The notes under the pieces are model-generated. The model did not search any database and was not told the origin of the DNA. It saw only the letters and a program-made list of their open reading frames with translations. 38,259 nucleotides of DNA from assembly GCA_019236395.1 (NCBI GenBank), contig JAFAJB010000061.1:1-38259 (forward strand), in the 5' to 3' direction. Numbering within the stretch: the first letter of the stretch is position 1; every line of letters starts with the position of its first letter. Positions 9,981 to 12,426 of the stretch are shown here, piece by piece. This DNA comes from Cupriavidus sp. (GTDB lineage: Bacteria > Pseudomonadota > Gammaproteobacteria > Burkholderiales > Burkholderiaceae). Both the position numbers and the translations under genes were made by a program.

Positions 9981-10886
9981 ATGAACCTGGCGCGCTTCGA
10001 CCTCGTCACGCTGGGCCTGTTCGTGGCAGTGGCCCGGCAGGGCAGCATCTCGGCCGGCGCGCGCCAGTCGCACCTGGCGGTGGCGGCGGCCAGCAAGCGC
10101 ATCTCCGATCTGGAGGCCGCGGTTGGCGCGCCACTGTTCTTTCGCCATGCCGCCGGGGTTCAGCTTACCGAAGCCGGGCAGGCCTGTTTTCACCACGCGC
10201 TGACGATCCTGCAGGATGTCGAGCGCATGGCCGGCGTGATGTCCGATTACGCGTCGGGCGTTCGTGGCCAGGTGCGCGTGTGCGCGAATACCTCGGCCAT
10301 CACGCAGTTCCTGCCCGACGACCTGGCGCAGTTCATGCGCCTGCATCCGACCATCCGCATCGAGCTCGAAGAGCACAACAGCAGCGACATCGTGGCCGCG
10401 GTGATGGAAAACCGGGCCGATGTCGGGATCTTTGCCGACCGTACGCCGTGCGCTGGGCTGGTGACAGTCGAGTATCGGCAGGACGAACTCGTCATCATCA
10501 CGCCGCCGGGGCATCCGCTCGCGCAGGCCGGCACGGTGCGGTATGCCGATGCGCTCGAATACGACTTCGTCAGCCTGCCGCAGGTGACGTCGCTGGCGGC
10601 GCGGCTGCTCGAGGAAAGCAGCCGGCTTGAGCGGCAGTTCCGCCTGCGTATCCAGGTGCGCAGCTTCGATGCGATGTGCCGCATGGTCATGGCCGGCCTC
10701 GGTGTGGGCGTACTGCCGCGCATCGCGGCCGAACCGCACGTCAAGTCGATGGGGCTGTCGCTGGTGGGCCTGCAGGACGCCTGGGCACGCCGCTCGCTGC
10801 TGATCGGCATGCGTGACCCGGCTGGCCTGACGGTTTCCGCGCGGCTGCTGATCACCCATCTCTGCGGCGACCGCGCGCCGTTCTGA
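9981..10886 (+). CDS. LysR-family transcriptional regulator
   Basis: N-terminal HTH LVTLGLFVAVARQGSISAGARQSHLAVAAASKRISDLEAAVGAPLFFRH followed by a substrate-binding domain. Confidence 0.92.
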   Translation: MNLARFDLVTLGLFVAVARQGSISAGARQSHLAVAAASKRISDLEAAVGAPLFFRHAAGVQLTEAGQACFHHALTILQDVERMAGVMSDYASGVRGQVRVCANTSAITQFLPDDLAQFMRLHPTIRIELEEHNSSDIVAAVMENRADVGIFADRTPCAGLVTVEYRQDELVIITPPGHPLAQAGTVRYADALEYDFVSLPQVTSLAARLLEESSRLERQFRLRIQVRSFDAMCRMVMAGLGVGVLPRIAAEPHVKSMGLSLVGLQDAWARRSLLIGMRDPAGLTVSARLLITHLCGDRAPF

Positions 10887-10900
10887 ATGTCTGGTTTATT

Positions 10901-11093
10901 AGAGACCGTTTAAAAATGAAGCGAAGCGGTTCTGGCTAGGGTGAAGCAGGGAATTCGGCTCGCATGCGAGCCGCCTGCGTAACGGCATGCGCATGTGAGT
11001 GCAAGCGCGCCCTGCAAGGGCGGGGCCGCAGACAGTACAAGTGGTACGGCCATGGCCCCGCAACGACGCCAGAATCATTTTTAAACGGTCTCT
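10901..11093. repeat. MITE-like structured element with 19-bp perfect terminal inverted repeats
   Basis: Left agagaccgtttaaaaatga (10901-10919), right tcatttttaaacggtctct (11075-11093), exact reverse complements; second inner arm ttctggc (10930-10936)/gccagaa (11068-11074); internal palindromes and hairpins. No plausible gene inside. Confidence 0.85.
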
Positions 11094-11109
11094 CAGGGTT
11101 CTCCCTGAT

Positions 11110-11229: not shown

Positions 11230-12426
11230 ATGGCGCAACAGATTCTCGACGGCATCCGCGTGCTGGAGCTGGGCCAACTCATTGCGGGCCCGTTCGCTGC
11301 CAAGACGTTGGCCGATTTCGGCGCACACGTGGTCAAGGTGGAGCCGCCCGGTCAGGGTGATCCGCTGAGAAAGTGGCGCATGCTTCACGAAGACACCTCG
11401 GTCTGGTGGGAAGCCCAGTCGCGCAACAAGCAGTCGATTGCCATCGACCTGCGCCAGCCGGAAGGTCAGGCGCTGGTGCGCAAGCTGGCCAGCGAAGCCG
11501 ATGTGCTGATCGAGAACTTCCGCCCGGGCACCATGGAGAAGTGGGGGCTCGGCTGGGACGTACTGCACGCCGACAATCCGAAGCTCATCATGGTCCGCGT
11601 GTCCGGCTACGGCCAGACCGGCCCGAAGAAGGACGAACCGGGCTTTGCCGCGGTGGCCGAGGCGATGAGCGGCCTGCGCTACCTGACCGGCGAGCCGGGG
11701 CGCCCGCCGGTGCGCGCGGGCCTGTCGCTCGGCGATACGATCGCCGGCCTGCATGGCGCACTCGGCGTGCTGCTGGCGCTCTACCAGCGCGATGCGCGCG
11801 GCGGGGAAGGGCAGGTCATCGACGTGGCGCTGTACGAGTCCCTGTTCAATCTCAGCGAAAGCCTGCTGCCCGAATACTCGGCGTTCGGCGCCGTGCGCCA
11901 GCCGGCCGGTGGCGCGTTGCCCGGCATCGCCCCATCGAACGCCTACCTGTGCGGCTGCGGCGAGTATGTGCTGATCGCGGCCAATGGCGATGCGATCTTC
12001 CGCCGGCTGATGGCCGCGATGGGTCGCAACGATCTGGGCGAAGATCCGACGCTGGCACGCAATGATGGCCGTGTGAAGCGCGTCGAGGAAATCGATGGCG
12101 CGATCACCGCATGGACGAAAACACAGACCGTGGCCTCTGCGCTGGAAGTGCTGCGTGCCGCCGACGTGCCGTCAGGCCGCATCTACACCGTCAAGGACAT
12201 CGCCGAAGACCCGCATTACCGTGCGCGTGGCGTGATTGAAACGGTGACTTCGGCGAAGGGTTTGCAGGTGGAGGTGCCGGGCATCATGCCGAAGCTGTCG
12301 GGCAACCCCGGTGGCATCCACGATCGCGCCCCCACGCTGGGCGAGCATACCGATGCCGTGCTGGCCGATGCTGGTTTTGACGCGGCGGCCATTGCCGACC
12401 TGCGAGCCCGAGGGGTGATCGCATGA
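11230..12426 (+). CDS. CaiB/BaiF-family (class III) CoA-transferase
   Basis: MAQQILDGIRVLELGQLIAGPFAAKTLADFGAHVVKVEPPGQGDPLRKWR; NKQSIAIDLRQPEGQALVRKLASEADVLIENFRPGTMEKWGLG. Confidence 0.94.
   Translation: MAQQILDGIRVLELGQLIAGPFAAKTLADFGAHVVKVEPPGQGDPLRKWRMLHEDTSVWWEAQSRNKQSIAIDLRQPEGQALVRKLASEADVLIENFRPGTMEKWGLGWDVLHADNPKLIMVRVSGYGQTGPKKDEPGFAAVAEAMSGLRYLTGEPGRPPVRAGLSLGDTIAGLHGALGVLLALYQRDARGGEGQVIDVALYESLFNLSESLLPEYSAFGAVRQPAGGALPGIAPSNAYLCGCGEYVLIAANGDAIFRRLMAAMGRNDLGEDPTLARNDGRVKRVEEIDGAITAWTKTQTVASALEVLRAADVPSGRIYTVKDIAEDPHYRARGVIETVTSAKGLQVEVPGIMPKLSGNPGGIHDRAPTLGEHTDAVLADAGFDAAAIADLRARGVIA

Follow-up and report, generated by a model that had tools for sequence, protein, structure and literature searches.

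Correia elements, the earliest MITEs described in bacteria, have been reported as found only in Neisseria. In gonococci and meningococci they influence the expression of genes, and what mobilises them is unknown (PMC2649163). Searches of the open-access literature, subscription papers not being covered, gave no report of Correia elements or of their core sequence outside Neisseria; a MITE of Thiomargarita has been likened to them, its sequence being divergent according to its authors. Two other repeats offer parallels to the element analysed here. RUP of Streptococcus pneumoniae is likewise a MITE that shares its ends with an insertion sequence (IS), IS630-Spn1, and has a TA-containing target (PMC2229807), although its transposase family differs from IS5 and no shared core is known, no comparison having been made. 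The enterobacterial ERIC/IRU repeats are likewise intergenic fold-back sequences (~127 bp) with effects on mRNA at 3′ ends (PMC10969869); no sequence relation to our element is known, again without a comparison.

The window, i.e., the whole 38,259-nt stretch of Cupriavidus sp. DNA that was analysed, carries a structured element between a LysR-type regulator gene and a CoA-transferase gene. Its parts and neighbours are as follows:

9981–10886, + strand: LysR-type regulator, upstream; its stop codon lies 15 bp before the element
10899–10901, no strand: left target-site copy TTA (target consensus C-TWA-G)
10902–11092, + strand (orientation of the core taken as +): mobile element, long form, 191 bp
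10902–10919, + strand: left terminal inverted repeat GAGACCGTTTAAAAATGA; both ends of an IS5-family element (L152) match it at 16/18 positions
10920–10929, + strand: conserved one-sided bulge AGCGAAGCGG, across genera AGCGNAGCGG
10930–10936, + strand: 5′ side of the inner stem, TYCTGGC, pairing with GCCAGRA at 11068–11074
10941–11019, + strand: 79-bp insert with palindrome CGGCTCGCATGCGAGCCG, separating the long (~191 bp) from the usual (~112 bp) form
11020–11061, + strand: core hairpin GCGGGGCC..GGCCCCGC; its internal loops GCAGACA and ACGGC are conserved
11025–11050: core segment common to Correia elements, 24/26 bases identical
11068–11074, + strand: 3′ side of the inner stem, GCCAGRA, pairing with 10930–10936
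11075–11092, − strand: right terminal inverted repeat, exact reverse complement of the left one
11093–11095, no strand: right target-site copy TCA, one base decayed
11230–12426, + strand: CoA-transferase family III gene, downstream

The inverted arms listed in a preliminary description of this DNA are all present at the positions given there: perfect 19-bp inverted ends (10901–10919 and 11075–11093), a second arm pair (TTCTGGC, 10930–10936; GCCAGAA, 11068–11074), a perfect 18-bp palindrome (10956–10973) and further internal arms, including GCGGGGCC/GGCCCCGC enclosing GTAC..GTAC; the start 15 bp past the LysR stop codon was confirmed as well. The extent of 10901–11093 proposed there is correct for the inverted arms but too wide for the mobile element proper, GAG...CTC, which spans 10902–11092, the outermost A and T belonging to the target site. 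This interval, composed of inverted repeats and nested hairpins between perfect ends, gives fold z-scores of −6.4 (RNA, + strand), −6.9 (RNA, − strand) and −6.4 (DNA), and none of 200 shuffles folded as well. The element is short, lacks a transposase gene and has terminal inverted repeats, as expected of a MITE. It matched none of 4227 Rfam families; a cobalamin riboswitch of ordinary appearance was seen elsewhere (L213, 1776–2006). The 79-bp insert, with its perfect 18-bp palindrome, recurs in long copies of several Cupriavidus species, and L015 represents a partial version of it.

A BLAST search of the element's own genome assembly (3.2 Mb, 54% complete) recovered the window copy, three further complete copies of the long form and around twelve short ones, ~15 in total. 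The suspicion that the element is multicopy is thus borne out in its own genome, in relatives and across the order, and a single-copy locus, which would have refuted the initial reading, is not what was found. The usual short form (~112 bp) lacks window positions 10941–11019, and one copy in the same genome (L016) consists of two ends placed back to back (67 bp). Within the genus, 36 of 60 genomes contain copies; several relatives have dozens per genome, with at least 20 in each of four (scoring stopped at 22 per genome). Across the order, related copies (E ≤ 1e-5) occur in 100 of 399 genomes, representing 53 of 158 genera, and a 20-mer from the inner stem region has exact matches in more than 100 places, including Cupriavidus, Ralstonia, Polaromonas, Chitinimonas, Roseateles, Dechloromonas, Azospira and Crenobacter. 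In those genera the core is kept while the ends vary; Chitinimonas, for instance, has GAGCGGCTAACAAAACCC. Searches of a phage collection and IMG/VR yielded no copies of the window form. One full copy (L239, 660–772; E 5e-26) was seen outside Betaproteobacteria, in a MAG that carries the label Moraxellaceae, and could reflect transfer or mis-binning.

Identical triplets flank 25 of 80 Cupriavidus copies, compared with 12% expected from random pairing of flanks; they are always TAA or TTA, in most cases with C before and G after them. A multi-genus set of 110 copies contains TTA/TTA 21 times and TAA/TAA 14 times. The target duplication is 3 bp long, TAA or TTA, inside CTWAG. The preliminary description saw no obvious duplication, and none is visible as such in the window copy; it is nevertheless present as TTA/TCA and was missed because one base has decayed. 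An empty site, sought in related strains, was also found: the orthologous LysR–CoA-transferase gap is present across the genus, and the element is absent from it in C. metallidurans CH34 and several other species. Genome G050 is that of CH34, its place C4:1554239–1554434 coinciding with NC_007974.2:1554239–1554434, which identifies the genus as Cupriavidus. Two genomes of sister species (G006 and G017) carry short-form copies right at the LysR stop codon, in the orientation opposite to the window copy; these are separate insertions in the orthologous gap. The element is a mobile MITE, as initially proposed, since it is multicopy, generates target duplications, has an empty counterpart site and shares its ends with insertion sequences.

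Comparison with Correia elements started from GCCGCAGACAGTACAAATAGTACGGC, which we took to resemble them. Correia repeat sequences used as queries came from PMC2649163, and IMG/VR matches to Correia ends revealed true Correia elements on three viral contigs. A covariance model (R1), built from 38 non-neisserial copies only, aligns to the core of these elements, albeit weakly because they are long-form copies. In family f44 (genomes of 1.8–2.8 Mb) the model gives 2–82 matches per genome, typically over positions 1–112 with E ~1e-8 to 1e-9, and in several f44 genomes the published Correia ends lie on R1 matches (e.g., L342 in G103). The window copy is identical to the f44 Correia elements at 24 of 26 core bases; the core GCCGCAGACAGTACAARTRGTACGGC is common to the element and to Correia elements, and the ends vary by lineage. 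Some f44 relatives (L337, L344, L346 and L364) combine the shared core with other ends (TATAGTCGATTAAAATC, TATAGTGAAACAAAAT), so end variation is seen there too.

Besides the homologous core hairpin, the element shares with Correia repeats (CREE/NEMIS/SRE) a fold-back structure, a similar size, short and long forms, high copy number, the absence of an ORF and a TA-containing target; a very short form made of paired ends measures 67 bp in Cupriavidus and 69–73 bp in gonococci. The ends, however, are GAG... in Cupriavidus and TATAGYGGATTAA... in Correia elements, and the window ends GAGACCGTTTAAAAATGA are not the Correia 26-bp repeat TATAG[CT]GGATTAA(CAAAAA / ATTTAAA) (PMC2649163). Nor is there a strict TA duplication: unlike the one described for Correia elements, the duplication here is 3 bp (TAA/TTA in CTWAG) and merely contains TA. 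The long-form insert is located on the 5′ side and is unrelated to the neisserial 50-bp insert; the IHF site of the Correia long form (WATCAANNNNTTR, ≤1 mismatch) is absent from 10902–11092; and the Cupriavidus element lies mostly at gene 3′ ends, whereas 76 of 123 Correia copies in gonococcal strain FA1090 lie 5′ of genes (PMC2649163). Because ends and target duplication differ, we classify the element, by sequence comparison, as a Correia-like relative and not as a strict CREE. Overlap with an already described IS-derived family, considered in the preliminary description as a possible refutation, is therefore partial: the core is that of neisserial Correia elements, while ends, target site and distribution are different. 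The comparisons show the kinship: Correia repeats are one branch of a hairpin family spread across Betaproteobacteria. It is hard to maintain that the element is an ordinary IS5-derived MITE private to Cupriavidus, resembling Correia elements by chance; its ends do match insertion sequences of the genus, and recent high-copy bursts in single genomes would suit such an origin, but the same core occurs with different ends in more than 50 genera, and R1 finds tens of full-length Correia elements per genome.

The fold itself is conserved. In alignment A3, standard pairs fill 95.7% of cells, and double changes affect 22 of 37 pairs (232 cells, compared with 78 in shuffles); sliding the alignment by 1–3 columns abolished the covariation signal every time. 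The terminal stem contributes its largest part. Double changes are seen in 5 of 8 pairs of the internal hairpin, and the inner-stem Y/R pair switches jointly (T-A in 21 sequences, C-G in 16); neither belongs to the transposase ends. Coupled changes also arose after insertion in orthologous copies (L075/L097/L108 and L052/L058). The structure of the element is under constraint, as its strong covariation, internal hairpin included, demonstrates, and its initial description as structured holds. Arm complementarity could alternatively be kept by DNA template switching (quasi-palindrome correction) instead of selection, which would explain double changes in otherwise unchanged copies (in one genome, 17 double changes were compensated, compared with 11 single ones that disrupt or weaken pairing). 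We find this unlikely, as the internal hairpin and the inner-stem Y/R position covary too, and the wobble pairs that persist show a strand bias.

This bias was seen among derived single changes that leave a transition mispair (L036–L115): read on the + strand of the element, G-T outnumbers A-C by 28 to 3, independently of the direction of the neighbouring gene (p = 5e-6 if the changes are independent, a value weakened by shared ancestry). Several unpaired segments are nearly invariant across genera as well, namely AGCGNAGCGG, TAGGCG, GCAGACA, ACGGCAAG and CAACRAC. Both the invariance and the 28:3 asymmetry would be compatible with the element encoding its own + strand small RNA, of which the conserved unpaired bases are functional parts. 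We give this possibility little credence: no sigma-70 promoter-like site was found in or near the window copy, no Rfam family is matched, conservation could equally serve transposition at the DNA level, and common ancestry of the copies inflates the wobble count.

None of the 80 Cupriavidus copies lies inside a predicted gene, with the reservation that gene calls were made by a simple codon-usage caller and single assignments may be wrong. Stop codons are abutted by 57 of the 80 copies, compared with 13 of 55 comparable CTWAG sites that do not break a gene (p = 8e-8); a stop-codon preference arising as a mere by-product of the target sequence is insufficient to explain this. Convergent gaps are over-represented (33/80 vs. 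34/256, p = 3e-7) and divergent gaps are depleted. Abutting copies favour one orientation (76:21, in two sets with some copies in common), and the bias is found in copies whose duplications have decayed (31:6), being absent where they are intact (10:8; p = 0.045). Where duplications are imperfect (L036–L115), the gene-side triplet is often another stop (TAG or TGA) and the other target copy drifts, the pattern to be expected under constraint on the stop alone.

The over-representation of copies at stop codons and in convergent gaps, the prevalence of one orientation among older copies (imperfect duplications 31:6, perfect 10:8) and the maintenance of the fold after insertion in the orthologous copies listed above raise the question of whether hosts have domesticated the hairpin as a 3′-end signal, i.e., a terminator or an mRNA-stabilising hairpin that MITE insertion has distributed and selection acting on host mRNAs has preserved. 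We cannot dismiss this explanation, yet consider it doubtful. A scan of the window copy revealed no signature of an intrinsic terminator, and the terminator function suggested in the preliminary description is not supported, no canonical one having been found. Moreover, the G-T over A-C excess tracks the strand of the element and not that of the gene, so a location in the 3′UTR leaves the 28 vs. 3 asymmetry on the + strand unaccounted for. Selection on the neighbour's mRNA would not predict this strand dependence.

A candidate mobiliser is offered by IS5-family insertion sequences. The L152 element (915 bp) has GAGACCGTTTCAAAAAGA at both ends, identical at 16/18 positions to the window repeat and at 17/18 to the best Cupriavidus element end. 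The ends of L140, L144, L153, L154, L158 and L162 match element ends, from their own or other genera, at 15–17/18; among 3000 control 18-mers starting with GA, two reached 15 and none 16. Most of the end-matching insertion sequences have TAA/TTA flanks. L152 encodes an IS5-family transposase (NF033580 of NCBIfam; PF13340 and PF01609 of Pfam) in two overlapping frames. Assignment to the IS427 group rests on annotated relatives (IS402, ISBugl2, ISAzba7 and ISMra6) and on the published group description, which fits two overlapping ORFs, a length of ~0.9 kb and a 2–4 bp duplication (PMC3281130). C. metallidurans CH34 carries the IS427-group elements ISRme1 and ISRme6 (PMC2864759), and IS5/IS427 transposases also occur in N. 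meningitidis (PMC9778887). Insertion sequences of this group share the terminal 18 bp and a TNA-type target site with our element; they differ from it in encoding a transposase and in length (~0.9 kb), and no likeness to the core was seen inside their ends. A separate insertion sequence (L124 in G020, 1037–2227) is bordered by TTAG on either side and has near-perfect ends GGATGGTGTTCAAAAC.

The matching ends came from a genus-wide protein search, and the insertion sequences that bear them are mostly found in other species of the genus than the high-copy genomes. No intact insertion sequence with exactly window-type ends was detected in the high-copy genomes examined; a pattern search for element ends returned only MITE copies and no insertion sequence; and searches with PF13340, PF01609 and PF13586 in five to seven genomes yielded insertion sequences that were degenerate or had other end types. 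The search for a transposase with matching ends, suggested in the preliminary description, thus succeeded within the genus at 15–17/18 but gave no exact match in the same genome. IS5/IS427 is proposed as the mobiliser because of this 15–17/18 match; mobilisation of the element in trans by such a transposase is well supported but inferred, as no transposition has been observed.

Our preferred reading, to which we assign a probability of about 0.85 with the inferred mechanism included, is a non-autonomous MITE of a Betaproteobacteria-wide superfamily whose structured core is shared with neisserial Correia elements. According to this mechanism, an IS5/IS427-type transposase would work in trans on the element ends, which would drift or be swapped to track the resident insertion sequence, and the core would be retained for its fold, which the element would require, as RNA or extruded DNA, to propagate itself. 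When a TAA stop is the target, insertion regenerates the stop and would hence be tolerated. In transcripts, the long hairpin would be expected to be cleaved by RNase III, a fate reported for Correia elements; any part played in gene regulation or RNA processing, like any other function beyond mobility, is inferred only. We tentatively speculate further that Correia elements may represent, in Neisseria, one branch of an ancient parasitic hairpin spread through the order, in which the core is selected, the ends are refitted to the host IS5/IS427 transposase and the loops are needed, as RNA or extruded DNA, during transposition, although the odds do not favour this extended version. If true, it would make the element a structure-dependent, end-swapping MITE and not a passive deletion derivative of one insertion sequence.

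A family spread across Betaproteobacteria would provide non-pathogenic hosts, such as Cupriavidus, for studying Correia-type elements. It would also supply a concrete mobiliser candidate in the IS5/IS427 transposases, together with comparative evidence that the fold itself, and not the ends alone, is conserved.
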